Origin: an uncultured Pseudomonadota bacterium
GTDB lineage: Bacteria > Pseudomonadota > Gammaproteobacteria > Burkholderiales > Methylophilaceae
Length of the DNA stretch: 51,577 bases
NCBI GenBank assembly: GCA_903876765.1
Contig: CAIRBH010000045.1
Coordinates: forward strand, 1 to 51,577
Direction: 5' to 3'
The translations under genes were made by a program, and so were the position numbers. The notes below the pieces were generated by a model that had not been told where the DNA came from, ran no database searches, and saw only the letters and a list, made by a program, of their open reading frames with translations. This document shows, one piece after another, positions 2,545 to 10,569 of the stretch. Within the stretch, counting starts at the first letter, position 1, and each line of letters opens with the position of its first letter.

Positions 2545-3357
2545 CTATTTGAGCCTAGCTTGTTGACCAATTTCCTGAATATCACTTTCATCTTTGAGGC
2601 TCACACCAGTGAGCTTTAATCGCATGGCCTCTTTAGCCAGCCATATCAGTTTTGTGGCTGCTCTTGCGTATTGCAGACCTTCTGGACGTACATTAGAGAT
2701 GCAATTTCTGCCTGCATCGCTTAACCCCAGCTTAGGCTGATAAGTCAAATAAATCCCTAGGCTATCTGGCGAGCTTAAACCAGGCCGCTCGCCAATGAGC
2801 ATGGCAACCATGCGCGCGTTGAGCGCTTGGCCAATTTCGTCACCAATAGCCACGCGCGCCTGAGAAGCAATCACAACCGGACCTATATGCCATTGTTCAG
2901 GAATACACTTGCGTAACGCTGCAAGCAAGGGCACTACGTGCCGACTAACCGCCAAGGAAGACAAGCCATCACCGACCACAATCAATAAATCTATCGGCTT
3001 AGTTTGACTAGAAGTGGCATACAAATGCTGCAACTTAGACAGACTATCCTCATGCAATTTTCGCCCCCAATCTGGTCGCAACAAATAACTGGCACGATCT
3101 GGTGCCATGCTTTTAACTTGAACCGTCAGCCATTGCTGCGCTTGAATGTCGGCCTCTAGCGCCGCTGTGTCCAGCGCTAAATGCACCGCATCCCGCGCCA
3201 TGGCATGGGCTAGACCAAAATCCAAAACCTCACTTGTCGGCAAACTGCTACCAACTCGGCCTAATGCAATACGTGCACGTGTAAAAGTTTTCAGTTGCGT
3301 CCATGGGTCTACTGATTGATGTGCTAACAACGGCGTGATATGCGGGAGTTTAGGCAT
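2545..3357 (-). CDS. eutC: Ethanolamine ammonia-lyase small subunit
   Basis: The light chain of the adenosylcobalamin-dependent lyase that converts ethanolamine to acetaldehyde and ammonia. The 270-aa protein carries family blocks such as VVGDGLSSLAVSRH, the MLIGERPGLSSPDSLGIY segment and the RNCISNVRPEGL block near the C-terminus, all associated with cobalamin and subunit contacts. Length matches EutC (about 260-300 aa). It follows eutB on the same strand after a 61-bp gap containing a 16-bp tandem duplication, so the two are probably one operon. I see no microcompartment shell genes and no eutA reactivase in the window. Confidence 0.93.
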   Translation of the reverse strand: MPKLPHITPLLAHQSVDPWTQLKTFTRARIALGRVGSSLPTSEVLDFGLAHAMARDAVHLALDTAALEADIQAQQWLTVQVKSMAPDRASYLLRPDWGRKLHEDSLSKLQHLYATSSQTKPIDLLIVVGDGLSSLAVSRHVVPLLAALRKCIPEQWHIGPVVIASQARVAIGDEIGQALNARMVAMLIGERPGLSSPDSLGIYLTYQPKLGLSDAGRNCISNVRPEGLQYARAATKLIWLAKEAMRLKLTGVSLKDESDIQEIGQQARLK

Positions 3358-3388
3358 GATGGATGGCTACACCTTAAATTAGATAGTG

Positions 3389-3429
3389 AGGGAATCAAAT
3401 GCTCAGGGAATTAAATGCTCAGGGGGGGG
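3389..3429. repeat. 16-bp tandem duplication plus G8 tract at the eutB stop
   Basis: AGGGAATCAAATGCTC (3389-3404) is followed directly by AGGGAATTAAATGCTC (3405-3420), 15 of 16 identical. A run of eight G (3422-3429) comes next, with a degenerate third copy after it. The eutB stop codon (3421-3419) sits on the junction between unit 2 and the G-run, so the last two proline codons are read from the homopolymer. Confidence 0.85.
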
Positions 3430-4813
3430 TTAAATACTTAGGCATATTTTTCAACATCTGATGCGCATGGTCTATGGGCTGTATATTGCCATCGGCATCC
3501 ATAATTTGCATTTTTTTCAGCCATACTTCAAATTCTGGTGCGGCTTTTAAAGCCAATACTTTGCGCAAATACAAAGCATCATGAAACGAAGTTGTTTGAT
3601 AATTGAGCATAATATCATCCGCACCAGGTATGCCCATGATAAAGGTCAGGCCAGCGGTGGCCAGTAGCGTCATCAAAGTATCCATGTCATCTTGGTCGGC
3701 TTCGGCATGATTGGTATAGCACACATCACAACCCAAGGGCACCCCTAGCAACTTGCCACAAAAGTGGTCCTCCAACCCTGCACGAATAATTTGCTTACCA
3801 TCGTATAAATATTCTGGGCCGATAAAACCAACCACAGTGTTACTCAGCAAGGGTGATAAATGTCGGGCGACTGCATAAGCTCTGGCTTCACAGGTTTGCT
3901 GATCCACGCCAAAATTAGCATTGGCAGACAGCACAGAGCCTTGGCCAGTTTCAAAATACATCACATTATTACCGACCGTACCGCGATTTAAAGATAGCGC
4001 CGCCGATTGCGCCTCTTTTAGCAAGGCTATATCAATACCGAAGCTTTTATTGGCTTTTTCAGTGCCGGCAATCGACTGAAAGACTAAATCCACTGGCGCA
4101 CCACGTTCAATCAACTTAATCTGGTTAGTGACGTGGGTGAGTATGCAAGATTGGGTCGGGATCTCATATTGATTGATCACTTCATCCACCAAATAATACA
4201 AATCCATCAGTGCTGGCAAGCTATCAGTCGCGGGATTAATGCCTATGACCGCATCGCCTGAACCATAGAGCAAGCCATCTAGCATAGAGGCCGCAATGCC
4301 ACGCGCATCATCGACCGGGTGATTGGGTTGCAAGCGCACGGAAAGATGCCCAGGCAAACCGATAGTGTTTCTAAAGGCAGTGACCACATGGCATTTTTTA
4401 GCAACCAATATCAAATCTTGGTTGCGCATGAGTTTGCACACTGCTGCTGCCATTTCTGGCGTAATACCTGGCGCTACCTGCTTTAAAGTTGCGCTATCCG
4501 CCAGGTCTGAAAGTAACCAATCTCGAAAATCACCAACGGTGAGGTGGCTGATGCTGGCAAACGCTTGCTTATCATGCGTGTCCACAATCAAGCGCGTCAC
4601 TTCGTCAGTTTCATACGGAATGATGAGTTCTTCGAGAAACCGTTTAAGCGGAATTGCCGACAAACACATTCTGGCAGCCATACGTTCAGCATAGGTTTGC
4701 GCTGCTACCCCAGCCAGAAAATCACCAGAACGCGCTGGCGTGGCTTTAGCCAACACCTCCTTCAAATCAGCAAACTGATAAGTATGCGTTCCTGCAATAT
4801 AACTGTATGTCAT
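3419..4813 (-). CDS. eutB: Ethanolamine ammonia-lyase large subunit
   Basis: The catalytic TIM-barrel subunit of ethanolamine ammonia-lyase; it binds substrate and the cobalamin radical system with EutC. The 464-aa protein has recognisable EutB blocks: ATPARSGDFLAGVAA, LSVRLQPNHPVDDARG, GDAVIGINPATDS, ETGQGSVLSANANFG and GCDVCYTNHAEADQDD. An ATG at 4846 is open, but 4813 is preferred: it gives the normal MTYSYIAG N-terminus and has a purine-rich GAGGTAGAG upstream. First gene of a probable eutB-eutC operon. Expected product use is ammonia as nitrogen source; acetaldehyde handling is not encoded nearby. Confidence 0.95.
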   Translation of the reverse strand: MTYSYIAGTHTYQFADLKEVLAKATPARSGDFLAGVAAQTYAERMAARMCLSAIPLKRFLEELIIPYETDEVTRLIVDTHDKQAFASISHLTVGDFRDWLLSDLADSATLKQVAPGITPEMAAAVCKLMRNQDLILVAKKCHVVTAFRNTIGLPGHLSVRLQPNHPVDDARGIAASMLDGLLYGSGDAVIGINPATDSLPALMDLYYLVDEVINQYEIPTQSCILTHVTNQIKLIERGAPVDLVFQSIAGTEKANKSFGIDIALLKEAQSAALSLNRGTVGNNVMYFETGQGSVLSANANFGVDQQTCEARAYAVARHLSPLLSNTVVGFIGPEYLYDGKQIIRAGLEDHFCGKLLGVPLGCDVCYTNHAEADQDDMDTLMTLLATAGLTFIMGIPGADDIMLNYQTTSFHDALYLRKVLALKAAPEFEVWLKKMQIMDADGNIQPIDHAHQMLKNMPKYLTPP

Positions 4814-4922
4814 GATGCACTCTACCTCTAGCATTAATTGGCACAACTAATGGCTGCATTATGCGGCATTTTTAAAACATACAGCAAGCCTAGGGCTGTG
4901 TTTAAGTGCAGCATGCGGGCAT

Positions 4923-5025: not shown

Positions 5026-5715
5026 CTAATCATTACTACCCATCAAACCCATTAATAATTGCAATAGGCTGGTGAATAAGTTGTAGATGCTCATATAAAG
5101 GCTTAAGGTTGCCATCACATAATTAGTTTCGCCACCATTCACAATGCGGCTGACGTCATACAAAATAAAGCCTGAGAATAAAATCACACCTATGGCTGAT
5201 AAGGCTAGGGTCATGGCGGGAATTTGCAAGAAAATATTAGCCAAAGACGCCACTATTAACAAAATAATACCGACCAATAAGAATTTGCTCATAAAGCTAA
5301 AATCTTTTTTAGTGGTAGTGGCAATGCCAGCTAACGTTAAAAAGATAATGCCTGTGCCACCCGCTGCTAAGCCGACGATTTGCGCACCATTGCGCAGATG
5401 CAAAGCATGTTGCAGAATTGGGCCTAGCATTAAGCCTAATAAGAAAGTTAAGCCTAACAACAATACAACGCCAATGCTGCTGTTGCGGTTGGCGGTTACT
5501 GCGGCAAACATGCCATAAAGCACAGCCATTGCGCCAATGGCGAATATAAACGGATGTTGTGCGGCAAAAGCAAAATTTAGGCTCATGCCAATAAATGCGC
5601 CGATGACGGTTGGAATAAGGGTTAAACCAAGCAAGGCATAGGTATTGCGTAAAACCTTATTAGTCACTTGCTGAGCGGATTCTGAACGACCTAATACTGG
5701 GGTGTTATCAAACAT
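5026..5715 (-). CDS. Bax inhibitor-1/YccA family membrane protein
   Basis: A 229-aa protein with seven hydrophobic segments after a short polar N-terminus, the architecture of the BI-1 (TMBIM) family. The segments with SGFILYDVSRIVNGGETNYV (the family's acidic helix-6 motif) and the final SLYMSIYNLFTSLLQLL are diagnostic. E. coli relatives are YccA, a modulator of the FtsH protease, and YbhL; which role applies here cannot be told from sequence. It lies downstream of nagZ with a 108-bp gap and has its own terminator. Confidence 0.88.
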   Translation of the reverse strand: MFDNTPVLGRSESAQQVTNKVLRNTYALLGLTLIPTVIGAFIGMSLNFAFAAQHPFIFAIGAMAVLYGMFAAVTANRNSSIGVVLLLGLTFLLGLMLGPILQHALHLRNGAQIVGLAAGGTGIIFLTLAGIATTTKKDFSFMSKFLLVGIILLIVASLANIFLQIPAMTLALSAIGVILFSGFILYDVSRIVNGGETNYVMATLSLYMSIYNLFTSLLQLLMGLMGSND

Positions 5716-5823: not shown

Positions 5824-6870
5824 TCAACTAAACAACTCGCCTTCTAGCAAACCCACTTGCGCGACTTGATGCACGGCATGCACAAACTCGGCTGTTTCAT
5901 GCAAAGCGTCTAGGCTGGGCGGGTGTTTTTGGCCATGCATACGCGCTAATCTGGCAATACTTTGCGCGGATATAGCCCATTCAAGATTTGCCAGCAGCTC
6001 ATCTTGCATGACGGGTTGATTGCAAAGTAATACCATGTCGCAACCAGCATGTAAGGCGGCCAAGGCACGACTGGTGACGTCACCGCCTGCGGTTGCCGCT
6101 TCCATACTTAAATCATCACTAAAAATTACCCCATTAAATCCCAAACGTTCCCGTAATATTTTTTGCAACCAACGCGCTGAAAAGCCCGCTGGCTTATCAT
6201 CTACTTTAGGGTAAATCACATGAGCAGGCATAATGGCCTGTATGCCATCATCTATCAGCATTCTAAAAGGCTGCATATCATTTTGCGCTATTTGGTCAAA
6301 TTCACGGTCATCAACCGGCATGCTGACATGAGAATCGGCCACAACAAAACCATGCCCAGGAAAATGCTTACCAACTGCTGACATGCCGCCTTTTTTAAGG
6401 CCTTGCATTAAAGCAAAAGCTAAATCATTAATGGCTTTTGCCTCTAAATGAAAAGCTCTATCGCCTATCACCAAACTATCGCCATAGTCCATATCCAACA
6501 CCGGGGTAAAACTGAAATCCACGCCATGGGCACGCAATTCTGCGGCCAGAATCCAACCAGCCTGAGTCGCCAATTCTTTAGCTTTTTTAGGGTTTTTATC
6601 CCAAATTTTACCGAATTCACGCATAGGCGGGATTTTAGTAAACCCGTCCCTAAAGCGTTGCACACGCCCTCCTTCATGGTCAACAGCAATCAACAGTGGC
6701 GGGTAGCGTACCGCATGAATGCTTGCGGTGAGCGCATTAAGCTGAGTGTTATTAATAAAGTTACGTTTAAACAAAATCACACCACCAACTAGCGGGTGTT
6801 GCAAGCGGCGGACGTCATCGGCTGTAAGTGCTGTGCCGACCACATCTATCATGACGGGACCTAATGACAT
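5824..6870 (-). CDS. nagZ: Beta-N-acetylhexosaminidase NagZ
   Basis: A cytoplasmic GH3 glycosidase that removes GlcNAc from GlcNAc-anhydroMurNAc-peptides during peptidoglycan recycling. The 348-aa protein has the NagZ signature KHFPGHG at 168-174 (the His-containing acid/base loop) and the nucleophile Asp in FSDDLSM (around 252-253). No signal peptide is present, as expected for NagZ. It is the last gene of the cluster that includes two peptide permeases and a YkuD enzyme, 47 bp after the upstream permease, which ties that cluster to cell-wall recycling. Confidence 0.95.
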   Translation of the reverse strand: MSLGPVMIDVVGTALTADDVRRLQHPLVGGVILFKRNFINNTQLNALTASIHAVRYPPLLIAVDHEGGRVQRFRDGFTKIPPMREFGKIWDKNPKKAKELATQAGWILAAELRAHGVDFSFTPVLDMDYGDSLVIGDRAFHLEAKAINDLAFALMQGLKKGGMSAVGKHFPGHGFVVADSHVSMPVDDREFDQIAQNDMQPFRMLIDDGIQAIMPAHVIYPKVDDKPAGFSARWLQKILRERLGFNGVIFSDDLSMEAATAGGDVTSRALAALHAGCDMVLLCNQPVMQDELLANLEWAISAQSIARLARMHGQKHPPSLDALHETAEFVHAVHQVAQVGLLEGELFS

Positions 6871-6917
6871 GCTGTACCTTTAATTATTGATAGTGTTGAT
6901 TATTAATAGTTTTGCAT

Positions 6918-7712
6918 TTATTTTTCTGTTCTAACATCAAGCTGATCACGCAAATAATCCCCAGCTAGGTTAATGGCCAAAATCAAACTCATCAAACTGA
7001 GCCCAACCACCAATACATAATGCGGGGCGACCAACATATATCTTACACCATCACGCAACATGCCACCCCAAGAAGCATCTGGCGCCTGTATGCCCAGGCC
7101 TAAAAATGACAAGCTGGCCTCCGCTATCATCACGCTGGCTATGCTGTAAGTGGCTTCTACTACTAATATAGAACTCAATAATGGCAAAATATGCACCATG
7201 ATTAATCTTGGCACCGACGCTCCTAGGGACTCGGCCGCCTGTACGTGTTGTCGATTGCGTAAACTCAAGGTCTGGCCTCGAGTTAAGCGGGCATAACTTA
7301 CCCAACCGCTCATACAAAGCGCTATCGTCAAATTGGTCAGGCCTGGCCCTAACACTGCTGCAAAGGCAATGGCCAGCAAAATTCCAGGAAATGCTAAAAA
7401 AATGTCGGTGATTTGCATTAGCAATCGGTCAACTCTACCACCGTAAAAGCCAGCGACTAGCCCAATAAAAACACCCAGCAACATGGTCAATATAGTCACG
7501 ACACATGCCACTAGCAAAGACACCTCTACCCCATGCAATAGCCTAGCCAAAATACTGCGGCCCAAGTCGTCTGCCCCTAATAAATGGGTACTGCTGGGCG
7601 TGCTCAGAATGGCGTTCAAATCAATCAGATTAGGATTAAGTTGCAATAATCGGCCAGCTAATACGGCCATTAGCCAAAATCCTAAAATCATCAAAGCTAG
7701 TTTTTTTATCAT
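6918..7712 (-). CDS. Peptide ABC transporter permease, DppC/OppC type
   Basis: An inner-membrane subunit of a peptide or nickel importer. The 264-aa protein shows an N-terminal membrane segment, the HLLGADDLGRSILARLLHG block and the EAA loop EAASLSFLGLGIQAPDASWG-type region of the DppC/OppC family, with about six membrane segments. The start at 7712 overlaps the stop of the DppB-type permease by 4 bp, so the pair is translationally coupled. No ABC ATPase gene follows; nagZ does. Substrate unknown; context suggests murein peptides. Confidence 0.9.
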   Translation of the reverse strand: MIKKLALMILGFWLMAVLAGRLLQLNPNLIDLNAILSTPSSTHLLGADDLGRSILARLLHGVEVSLLVACVVTILTMLLGVFIGLVAGFYGGRVDRLLMQITDIFLAFPGILLAIAFAAVLGPGLTNLTIALCMSGWVSYARLTRGQTLSLRNRQHVQAAESLGASVPRLIMVHILPLLSSILVVEATYSIASVMIAEASLSFLGLGIQAPDASWGGMLRDGVRYMLVAPHYVLVVGLSLMSLILAINLAGDYLRDQLDVRTEK

Positions 7713-8626
7713 ACTGCATAGACCAATTTAACCCGCGGATCTGCCAGTTGATACAGCATGTCTGTGAATAAATTAACCAGCACGTAGCTGAGCGCCACCA
7801 GCAAAACGCAGGCTTGCGTTACTGGGTAATCACGTTTTTCTATACTCTCTACCAATAAACGGCCTATACCATCCCAGCTAAAAATTGTTTCTGTGATGAC
7901 TGTGCCGGCCAACAAGCTGCCCATTTGCAAACCTACTATGGTAATAATCGGCAGCAGTGCGGCACGTAAGGCATGATGAATAATGACATGCGACTCGGAT
8001 AATCCCTTGGCTCTGGCGGTGCGTATATAGTCATCATTCAATACTTCTAGCAAACTAGTCCGCGTCATACGCGTTAGTATGGCGCTCAAACCCAAACCTA
8101 AAGTAAGTGCAGGCAGCACAATAGAAGTGTTGGCTTCCATGCCACTGACAGGCAGCCAACCCAACCACACGGCAAATATCAGCATGAGCATAGGACCTAG
8201 CCAAAATGCAGGCATGGCTGATAATCTGACAGAAACCAAACTTACCATTAAATCTTGCCACTTACCCGCTTTGAGTGCGGCAAAAATACCCATAGGCAGG
8301 CCAACACCCAGGCCAATCAGTAAGGACACAAAAGCTAACTTTAAGGTGGCGGGGTAACGGGTTTTAACGAGCTCAATAATCGGCGTTTTACTGTGTATGG
8401 ATAGGCCAAAATCTGCATGGGCCAGCCTTTGCAAATAATGCCCAAACTGAATAATCATGGGTTGATTTAATCCTAGCTCAGCGCGCAATACGACGCGGTC
8501 TGCCGAGCTGGCCGATTCACCTAGCATGACCTCGACGGGATCGCCAGGCACCAGATGTATCAGTAAAAAAGTCACTAGCAACACGCCAAAAACAACAGTA
8601 ACAAGGCCAATCAAGCGTTTAATCAT
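7709..8626 (-). CDS. Peptide ABC transporter permease, DppB/OppB type
   Basis: The partner of the DppC-type permease. The 305-aa protein begins MIKRLIGLVTVVFGVLLVTF, continues with the family block HLVPGDPVEVMLGE, and has the EAA-type loop RTARAKGLSESHVIIHHALR. An in-frame ATG further upstream (8674) would add 16 residues inside the YkuD gene; 8626 gives the standard N-terminus and an 8-bp overlap with that gene's stop. All four genes from the binding protein to the second permease overlap, which indicates one mRNA and coupled translation. Confidence 0.9.
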   Translation of the reverse strand: MIKRLIGLVTVVFGVLLVTFLLIHLVPGDPVEVMLGESASSADRVVLRAELGLNQPMIIQFGHYLQRLAHADFGLSIHSKTPIIELVKTRYPATLKLAFVSLLIGLGVGLPMGIFAALKAGKWQDLMVSLVSVRLSAMPAFWLGPMLMLIFAVWLGWLPVSGMEANTSIVLPALTLGLGLSAILTRMTRTSLLEVLNDDYIRTARAKGLSESHVIIHHALRAALLPIITIVGLQMGSLLAGTVITETIFSWDGIGRLLVESIEKRDYPVTQACVLLVALSYVLVNLFTDMLYQLADPRVKLVYAV

Positions 8627-9101
8627 GATGGATAAAAACAGTGCAGCCAACTTCAACCAAGTCAAACAGCGCAATCACATCTGCATTACGCATACGAATG
8701 CAACCATGTGATCCAGTTTTACCCATTTGACTGCAATCTGGCGTGCCGTGTATATAAATGTAACGCTGCATGGTATCAACATTGCCTAGTCGATTAAGCC
8801 CCAGCTCAGTGCCTGATAGCCATAAAATTCTGGTTAATATCCAATCACGTGTTGGATGCTCTGCCATTAATGCGGGTGTCAATATCTCCACCGTTGCCCT
8901 GCGCCCAACAAACACGCTATTGACCGCTGCGTTTGCGCCAATTTTAGCGCGCACTATATGCCGCCCTGTCGGCGTGCAGCCGCTATTTTTTTGGCAACCC
9001 GCGCCATTAGCGGCGCTAGAAATAGAATATTTAGCAATGGCCTGACCGCCATCATCATGCAAAGTTAGGCTTTGCTGTAAAAGTGAAATATCAATGTGCA
9101 T
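8619..9101 (-). CDS. YkuD-fold L,D-transpeptidase/carboxypeptidase without signal peptide
   Basis: The 160-aa protein is a YkuD-domain cysteine enzyme: IHGTPD at 117-122 and SHGCIRM at 131-137 give the catalytic His118-Gly and Cys134, with Arg136. No signal peptide or membrane anchor precedes the domain; the protein starts MHIDISLLQQ, already inside the fold. Periplasmic L,D-transpeptidases carry a signal, so this is probably cytoplasmic. From memory, A. baumannii ElsL is a signal-less YkuD enzyme that acts as a cytosolic L,D-carboxypeptidase in wall recycling and shares the RDWILTRILWLSG type of core. It overlaps the binding-protein gene by 11 bp and the permease by 8 bp. Confidence 0.85.
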   Translation of the reverse strand: MHIDISLLQQSLTLHDDGGQAIAKYSISSAANGAGCQKNSGCTPTGRHIVRAKIGANAAVNSVFVGRRATVEILTPALMAEHPTRDWILTRILWLSGTELGLNRLGNVDTMQRYIYIHGTPDCSQMGKTGSHGCIRMRNADVIALFDLVEVGCTVFIHHD

Positions 9102-10569
9102 ATCTGCTTATTGTAGCTAAATCATCCCAATTACCATCAGGTTTGGCAGAAAAATGATGAATCTGTTTACGCATGACCGCAAACTGACCTTCATACCAGA
9201 GCGGAATATAAGGCAATTGGCTGTTTATTCGCGCTGTTGCCGCTTGCCAATTGTCGTTTAATAAGTATTGATCTAATTGAGCATCTAGGTATCTGCCGCG
9301 ATTAAATCCTTTGGGCGGCATACTATTTGAGCCCAAGGCTTTTTCATAAATCTCTGGGGTCTTAATACCAACCCAAGTCAGCCCGTATAGCTGAAAATTA
9401 CCTTGTTTAATATCTTCAAAAAATGTGCCCCAATCTAAACTGCGTATTTCTAGCTGTATGCCAGCTGGCTGCATTTGCGCTTGCATAATAGTGGCAAAAC
9501 GCACGCGCTGGGCATCGGTTGAGGTTTTATAAACCAATTTAAGTGGCAACTTAACCCCCGCTTCTAGCAACAGCTGCCTCGCCAAAGCTGGCTTGTATGG
9601 ATAAATAGGCAATGAATACTGATTGGTATAATGCTCAGGCGGCAATATGGCGCCAGCGGCTCGAGTATTAGCCACCATCACTTTTTGCATCATCACATTA
9701 CGATCTATGGCATAAGCTAGCGCTTGCCTTACCTTTAATTGTTTTAGCACAGAGTCTTGCATATTCAACCCTAGGTAAGAAAAATTAGCGCCTATATTTG
9801 TTTTAACAATTACCTCAGGTTTTGTTTGCAGATATTGGACTAATTCTACGGGCAATTCCCCTTGCAATAAGTCCACCTCACCATGCAAAAGTTTTAATAC
9901 GCGCACAGTAGGATCTTTAACTTCTTGCAGACTAATCTTTTGCCCATCGCGTTCACGGACTAAGCTTAACTGATGCTGCCAAGACACTAAGCTCAAAGAG
10001 CCACTGCCGACTGGGTCATGAGAAAAATCATGATGTTGTGCAATAAGCGCCGCTGGCAAAATACCAATAATTAATTTGGCAGCAAAATGGCTATCTGCAG
10101 TTTTTAACTCAAACTGCACGGTATTGTCGTCTTTCACCCTAATATTTTTGATATTGTCGAACTCTGCGGCATGGGGGGAGTCTTTAAGAAAGGCAAATGA
10201 ATCATAAGTAGCTTTTACATCATAAGCGCTAATTAGCGCCCATTTAGACTTATCAGCACAGTGAAATGGTGCACGGTTTTTATTGAGCGTAAAGCTGTAT
10301 AGCCTAGGGCTGATCTCCTGCCAACTGGCTAAGCTAGCTGTGGGTTTGGATTGTGCATCAAAATCTACCAAGCTTTGATACAGAAGCCGATTTACCCGCG
10401 CTGAGGCAGCATCGGTGGCGTAACGCGGATCTAAATTAAGTGGTGCTTGGCTTACTGCAAATATTATCTCGCGATTATTAGGCCTAGTTGTCTCAGACTG
10501 ACGACATGAACTAACAGCCATTAGTAATACAGTGCAACAAAATGCGGTAAAGACATTAAACATTTTCAT
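9091..10569 (-). CDS. Peptide ABC transporter substrate-binding lipoprotein (SBP family 5)
   Basis: A 492-aa periplasmic receptor of the OppA/DppA type. The N-terminus has Lys3-type charge, a hydrophobic stretch and a lipobox VSSC with the lipidated cysteine at 22, so it should be membrane-anchored. Family features include LDPRYATDAASARVNRLLYQ near the mature start and VRQALAYAIDRNVMMQKV in the middle. It is the first gene of the cluster and likely carries the promoter. Ligand cannot be read from sequence; the YkuD and NagZ partners favour murein peptides over general nutrition. Confidence 0.9.
   Translation of the reverse strand: MKMFNVFTAFCCTVLLMAVSSCRQSETTRPNNREIIFAVSQAPLNLDPRYATDAASARVNRLLYQSLVDFDAQSKPTASLASWQEISPRLYSFTLNKNRAPFHCADKSKWALISAYDVKATYDSFAFLKDSPHAAEFDNIKNIRVKDDNTVQFELKTADSHFAAKLIIGILPAALIAQHHDFSHDPVGSGSLSLVSWQHQLSLVRERDGQKISLQEVKDPTVRVLKLLHGEVDLLQGELPVELVQYLQTKPEVIVKTNIGANFSYLGLNMQDSVLKQLKVRQALAYAIDRNVMMQKVMVANTRAAGAILPPEHYTNQYSLPIYPYKPALARQLLLEAGVKLPLKLVYKTSTDAQRVRFATIMQAQMQPAGIQLEIRSLDWGTFFEDIKQGNFQLYGLTWVGIKTPEIYEKALGSNSMPPKGFNRGRYLDAQLDQYLLNDNWQAATARINSQLPYIPLWYEGQFAVMRKQIHHFSAKPDGNWDDLATISRYAH

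Follow-up and report, generated by a model that had tools for sequence, protein, structure and literature searches.

The DNA analysed here, called the window throughout, is a 51,577-nucleotide contig (CAIRBH010000045.1, contig C45) from the draft genome of an uncultured member of the Methylophilaceae (GCA_903876765.1; 1.91 Mb, 90% complete). Its minus strand carries a series of five genes that encode, from 5′ to 3′, a solute-binding protein (SBP; this one SBP1), a YkuD-domain enzyme of the ElsL type, two permeases of the DppB and DppC types, and NagZ. We describe this operon as a candidate ATP-binding cassette (ABC) importer for murein fragments. The five genes, as they stand in the open reading frame (ORF) list of the window, are:

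9091..10569, minus strand: SBP1, family-5 solute-binding lipoprotein, 492 amino acids (Pfam SBP_bac_5; a clade of its own; Ile at the position of MppA Asp439)
8619..9101, minus strand: predicted ElsL-type cytosolic YkuD L,D-carboxypeptidase, 160 amino acids (Pfam YkuD; NF040925; SHGC motif)
7709..8626, minus strand: DppB-type permease (NCBIfam Opp2B; tree)
6918..7712, minus strand: DppC-type permease (Pfam BPD_transp_1)
5824..6870, minus strand: NagZ beta-N-acetylhexosaminidase (Pfam Glyco_hydro_3; NF003740)

These coordinates agree with an earlier note on this DNA, which had described a five-gene minus-strand set with overlaps of 11 bp (SBP1 and YkuD), 8 bp (YkuD and DppB) and 4 bp (DppB and DppC) and a gap of 47 bp between DppC and NagZ. 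The 8-bp overlap between the stop codon of the YkuD (ElsL) gene and the DppB ATG at 8626 reads ATGATTAA; the DppB start was set at this ATG, and the alternative listed TTG at 8674 gives a larger overlap. The gene identities given in the note were also correct, with every Pfam match above its cut-off (SBP_bac_5, 166 bits; YkuD, 71 bits; BPD_transp_1, 146.5 and 93.5 bits; Glyco_hydro_3, 265.5 bits). NagZ is genuine, scoring 498 bits against the equivalog NF003740 (cut-off 207), and the window DppB reaches 358 bits against the NCBIfam family Opp2B (cut-off 350). By Pfam, the operon holds the combination of a family-5 SBP and two BPD permeases that marks an Opp/Dpp-type importer. SBP1 itself matched no NCBIfam subfamily model above cut-off; its Cys22 lies within a VSSC motif that we take to be a lipobox. 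The N-terminus of the YkuD protein (MHIDISLLQQ), inspected by eye, has no signal peptide, as the note had said.

The role of the YkuD protein in wall recycling, which the note had also proposed, is supported by its sequence, which is closest to the recycling L,D-carboxypeptidases named ElsL. Its best curated NCBIfam family was ElsL (NF040925; 178 bits, E = 9.5e-53, below the cut-off of 270), and three ElsL orthologues from other clusters likewise scored below that cut-off (184-203 bits). His118, His132, Gly133, Cys134 and Arg136, which belong to an HG...SHGC active site, are invariant in 15 of 15 aligned family members, and a sequence search among solved structures returned no close relative of the window ElsL. 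Within a set of 100 Methylophilaceae genomes, ElsL is present in 97 and Mpl (TIGR01081) is above cut-off in 96; LdcA (PF02016) is above cut-off in one, and the source genome has a match of 19.9 bits that falls below it. Because LdcA is nearly absent and Mpl is common, the window ElsL is probably the recycling L,D-carboxypeptidase of the Methylophilaceae, with an enzyme activity predicted from its sequence.

Conservation of the gene order

An SBP1 orthologue was found in 86 of the 100 family genomes, a count that includes G071, whose SBP frame is interrupted by stops, and the partial G041; the matching DppC (DppC1) was found in 84. In 81 of the 84 genomes with both genes, DppC shares the strand of ElsL and follows it at a distance of at most 3 kb; the other three have the two genes on different contigs. 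One of these exceptions (G004) has a second, partial DppC match 0.9 kb from ElsL. Two of the 84 assignments lean towards linkage: the DppC1 of G092 was chosen by its position beside ElsL, another match scoring slightly higher, and G056 has two near-equal DppC matches. Of 85 family genomes, 70 have SBP1 upstream of ElsL at a distance of up to 3 kb and two more at about 4 kb; in the remaining 13, nine of them in genus g20, the two genes are distant or on separate contigs. In genera g4, g20 and g21, ElsL, DppB and DppC are kept together with the SBP gene elsewhere (L124-L126). In every examined locus that holds both SBP and permease genes, elsL lies between them. We hand-selected 20 SBP loci in the family for comparison of neighbourhoods, in which ElsL was recovered as 14 frames by ORF picking and in 17 of 20 loci by tblastn. 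Genes for a YhhQ-like queuosine-precursor transporter and a methyltransferase can separate DppC from NagZ. The genera g13 and g15 have equally small genomes: in g13, all ten sampled genomes lack SBP1 and DppC1 yet retain ElsL, and in g15 (L046, for example) SBP, ElsL and DppC stand together but have diverged (SBP 35-40%, DppC 39-51%).

Outside the family, we scanned a genome collection for ElsL and considered the best 80 of 586 loci, 71 of which lie outside Methylophilaceae by their titles and content. Among these 71, DppB and DppC follow ElsL in six, which come from Thiomicrorhabdus (L155, L170 and L196), Hydrogenovibrio (L185), a Chromatiales metagenome-assembled genome (MAG; L169) and a Legionellales MAG (L186). 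The order SBP-ElsL-DppB-DppC-NagZ is complete in five of these six distant carriers; in L170 the contig ends upstream. ElsL and NagZ occur together without a transporter in a further 13 loci, rlmD and ElsL alone in two, and none of the sought genes in 49; L209 has SBP-ElsL with no permeases in the next 5 kb. The five-gene order is more than chance, since it recurs both within and outside the family, and the conservation that the earlier note expected across Methylophilaceae thus holds and reaches beyond them. The SBP signal peptides of three distant carriers (L155:8016, KRRQFIK; L185:7873, KRRQFLK; L196:8274, KRRSFIQ) are unlike those of the Methylophilaceae. By their motif they resemble twin-arginine translocation (Tat) signals, which would here stand on lipoproteins of Thiomicrorhabdus and Hydrogenovibrio.

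Among the neighbouring genes, one for a Bax1-I/YccA-type membrane protein (window 5026-5715) comes after NagZ; of the 20 SBP loci compared in the family, 15 have it. Close to the operon are also eutB-eutC, which encode ethanolamine ammonia-lyase (window 2545-4846); elsewhere, matches to both are found near SBP in L049, and eutC matches in L039 and L047. Promoter-like sites showed no excess (12 against a mean of 13.5 in shuffles), terminator-like sites numbered 11 against 7.1, and neither kind serves as evidence here. The operon was not found on plasmid records, which gave two short matches at 65-68% identity.

ATPase genes and a second permease system

The window operon contains no ABC ATPase gene, whether of the DppD/DppF type or another, and the earlier note had overlooked an ATPase encoded outside it. 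The sole DppD/DppF-like pair of the source genome (E ≤ 1e-55) lies at G000:C1:19532-21240 (= L031:5533-7244), flanked by hisS and by yfgM-bamB-der, whose names were confirmed by test. All 13 pair loci that we examined (that of the source genome and 12 others) show this placement between hisS and yfgM, and three of them have a spacer of about 0.8 kb between hisS and the pair. A DppD relative is present in 93 of the 100 family genomes, and five genomes have an additional Dpp-type ATPase.

The source genome also holds a second family-5 set without an ATPase gene, MltD-SBP2-DppB2-DppC2-FabI (contig C14, L122:4635-10713), which recurs in four further family loci (L032, L033, L139 and L140). The identities of MltD, SBP2 and FabI were confirmed by test, and the MltD-like protein is a lytic transglycosylase with SLT and LysM domains. 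DppB2 groups with Yej-type permeases with moderate support (91/93). An MltD-like match next to Yej-like genes was seen again in L244 and L245. Because neither system has an ATPase gene of its own, one DppD-DppF pair probably powers both. The six distant carriers each have one two-domain Dpp-type ATPase (E ≤ 1e-40), in an operon that adjoins fabI and that we call Yej-like from its layout; the best match of the L240 ATPase is YejF (625 bits, below the cut-off of 834).

Probable substrate of the candidate importer and the place of AmpG

In trees built with E. coli proteins, SBP1 forms one group (support 100/100), as does DppB1 (100/96), and both stand apart from MppA/OppA, DppA/SapA, NikA, GsiB and the Yej proteins. 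The SBP thus does not cluster with the dipeptide, nickel and glutathione binders of E. coli. YejB lies apart from DppB1, which belongs to the Dpp/Gsi/Nik side of the tree (92/91), and the likeness to YejABEF-type transporters that the earlier note had drawn did not survive this comparison. In MppA, Asp439, near Trp436 and Val437, holds the L-Ala of the ligand by its free amine (PMC6022919). The MppA residues W436-V437-G438-D439 align with WVG[ILV] in 18 of 18 and 11 of 11 SBP1 rows (two alignments with overlapping rows), and the window SBP1 has Ile at the Asp439 position; E. coli DppA, OppA and SapA retain the Asp. As read from the alignments, this loss speaks against ordinary free peptides and would fit, although it does not prove, an N-blocked muropeptide as ligand. 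No close relative of SBP1 was found among solved structures, the nearest being haem/glutathione, dipeptide and other family-5 binders (E = 2.5e-21 and weaker). AlphaFold gave a weak model for SBP1 (mean predicted local distance difference test score 68.9; best PDB matches at template modelling scores of about 0.4), and because both values are low we draw nothing from it past the fold class.

From the observed gene content, order and conservation, the presence and absence of partner genes, and the clade and changed residue of SBP1, we infer a substrate, a direction of transport, an ATPase partner and two enzyme activities. With a probability of about 0.65, the operon encodes two cytosolic processing enzymes and those components of an ABC importer that set its substrate, which would be murein fragments; roughly two thirds of that confidence attaches to anhydro-muropeptides, the likeliest fragments, and the remainder to murein fragments generally. 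In the periplasm, the SBP1 lipoprotein would capture fragments from turnover, most probably anhydro-muropeptides, in which the amine of L-Ala would be blocked by the muramyl residue, and pass them to DppB-DppC, with ATP hydrolysis supplied by the DppD-DppF pair between hisS and yfgM. In the cytosol, NagZ would strip N-acetylglucosamine (GlcNAc), and ElsL would take D-Ala off tetrapeptide stems to give the tripeptide that Mpl reloads onto uridine diphosphate N-acetylmuramic acid. The importer would work alongside AmpG in Methylophilaceae and may stand in for it in Thiomicrorhabdus and Hydrogenovibrio. The earlier note had likewise proposed uptake of murein fragments trimmed by YkuD and NagZ; the ElsL match, NagZ and the conserved order speak for that idea, and its substrate is still a matter of inference.

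The note had further linked the operon to absence of ampG, a link that failed in the family and held in most distant carriers. Absence of ampG from Methylophilaceae was rejected, with AmpG (TIGR00901) above cut-off in 93 of 100 genomes, the source genome included. Among the six distant carriers, five (by title three isolates and two MAGs) gave no AmpG match at E ≤ 1e-5 in a search with a single profile, and most of the five belong to one lineage; as a control on 14 known genomes, the profile was above cut-off in two and matched five at all, E. coli included. AmpG was found in six of six sampled genomes with ElsL but no adjoining permease, and also in the L209 genome and in both Methylophilaceae of that comparison. 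These six comparison genomes were hand-selected from 64 non-family loci without SBP and permeases as judged by the neighbours of ElsL, so that a transporter could lie elsewhere in them. The genome of Thiomicrospira crunogena, a related species outside the set tested here, is described as encoding AmgK, MurU and AnmK, enzymes for imported anhydro-N-acetylmuramic acid (anhMurNAc) (PMC5371407).

Several observations weigh against a murein importer of this kind. AmpG is present in Methylophilaceae (495.6 bits in the source genome) and in the Legionellales MAG, which holds the full cluster, and a replacement for AmpG is therefore unneeded in both. Thiomicrorhabdus and Hydrogenovibrio supply four of the five genomes without AmpG, perhaps through a single event, and MAGs make up two of the five. 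According to a 2026 Caulobacter paper, muropeptides with the GlcNAc-anhMurNAc unit are recognised by AmpG only (PMC13046382). Loss of the Asp does not by itself name muropeptides, because its equivalent is missing from GsiB and YejA of E. coli as well. In an order-level sample, ElsL occurred in 110 of 200 genomes (E ≤ 1e-15), six of them in the family, and none of 31 ElsL loci hand-selected from the 104 non-family genomes (L085, among them, proved to be a family member) held SBP1, DppB1 or DppC1 genes; L097 had weak SBP and permease matches (27-28%) 3-7 kb from ElsL. In the genome collection, ElsL is followed by neither permeases nor NagZ in 51 of the 71 non-family loci, partly through contig ends. 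Finally, cysM, an exonuclease gene and rlmD (names tested) are often kept upstream at equal evolutionary distances, and because these unrelated genes are also kept, synteny is partly plain inheritance and adjacency alone is weak proof.

Three other explanations draw on the same evidence. The substrate could be free tri- and tetrapeptides of murein, liberated by amidases in the periplasm and imported as by E. coli MppA with OppBCDF, with AmpG handling sugar-linked fragments and ElsL trimming the imported tetrapeptide. We regard this as rather unlikely. It would suit the family, where AmpG already routes sugar-linked fragments, Mpl is common and elsL sits between the SBP and permease genes, and it has precedents in MppA (PMC6022919) and the Dpp transporter of B. 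subtilis (PMC10924461). Against it stand the loss of the amine-holding Asp (I, L or V instead in each of the 18 SBP1 rows) and the separation of SBP1 from MppA/OppA, while NagZ in the operon and the missing AmpG of five distant carriers point to sugar-linked fragments. Import of something other than murein (peptides, glutathione-like or opine-like solutes, or nickel chelates), with elsL and nagZ nearby through inherited gene order only, is likewise unlikely. The upstream retention of cysM, the exonuclease gene and rlmD, which have no known wall role, the solved sequences nearest to SBP1 and the absence of permeases from most ElsL loci outside the family would all agree with it; the consistent position of elsL between SBP and permease genes, the elsL-dppB-dppC group that g4, g20 and g21 keep intact with SBP at another place, and the lack of AmpG in five of six distant carriers do not.

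It is more improbable still that the second set is the muropeptide importer and owns DppD-DppF, with the window system a minor accessory. SBP2-DppB2-DppC2 does adjoin a lytic transglycosylase in five family loci, its DppB2 falls in the Yej-type group, and g13, which has no window system, keeps system 2 and a DppD gene, the latter in 7 of its 10 genomes. No cytosolic recycling enzyme lies beside that set, however; elsL is tied to the window system, and the ATPase gene is missing from both, so that the pair may serve both. The murein importer built around SBP1 remains the reading that we prefer.

Relation to known muropeptide importers

We found no description of the SBP-ElsL-DppB-DppC-NagZ arrangement in the open-licence literature. 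We suggest, tentatively and at somewhat less than even odds, that it represents a third kind of muropeptide importer beside AmpG and YejBEF-YepA, with its own SBP clade, built around ElsL and NagZ, using a shared ATPase and forming, in Thiomicrorhabdus and Hydrogenovibrio, the sole route by which anhydro-muropeptides enter. If so, it would give an entry route for wall fragments in Gram-negatives that have NagZ and muramic-acid recycling enzymes and no detectable AmpG, tie an ElsL carboxypeptidase to a transporter, and offer a case of specificity genes travelling without their ATPase. Labels like 'nickel ABC transporter permease', which belongs to the family whose cut-off the window DppB passes, would then need correction as well.

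The ElsL of Acinetobacter is a cytosolic recycling carboxypeptidase that acts on AmpG-imported fragments, and its orthologues are common across Beta- and Gammaproteobacteria (PMC8649774). The window ElsL resembles it in Cys active site, near-absence of LdcA and lack of a signal peptide, and probably in sequence family, its best match falling below the cut-off; its gene sits inside a transporter operon; the term 'abc transporter' has no occurrence in the main text of that paper. AmpG shares the proposed substrate class and is an unrelated protein of the major facilitator superfamily, which coexists with the window system in Methylophilaceae and was not found in five distant carriers.

Among ABC systems, YejBEF-YepA is the muropeptide importer of Agrobacterium (PMC9790009). 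It shares with the window system an Opp-type ABC importer, a dedicated SBP and a tie to wall recycling, and AmpG is missing there. The window system differs in that SBP1 and DppB1 stand apart from E. coli YejA and YejB (YepA itself being outside the comparison), its operon has ElsL and NagZ and no ATPase, and AmpG is mostly present in the family. Like E. coli MppA-OppBCDF, it would pair a family-5 SBP for a murein fragment with shared transporter parts, whereas SBP1 comes with permeases of its own, has no counterpart of Asp439 and falls outside the MppA/OppA group. For the Dpp transporter of B. subtilis, we know of no link to ElsL or NagZ. That transporter is said to bind murein tripeptide, and, set beside the window by description only, it resembles the system proposed here in being a complete transporter of the Dpp type that is narrowly specific for murein (PMC10924461).

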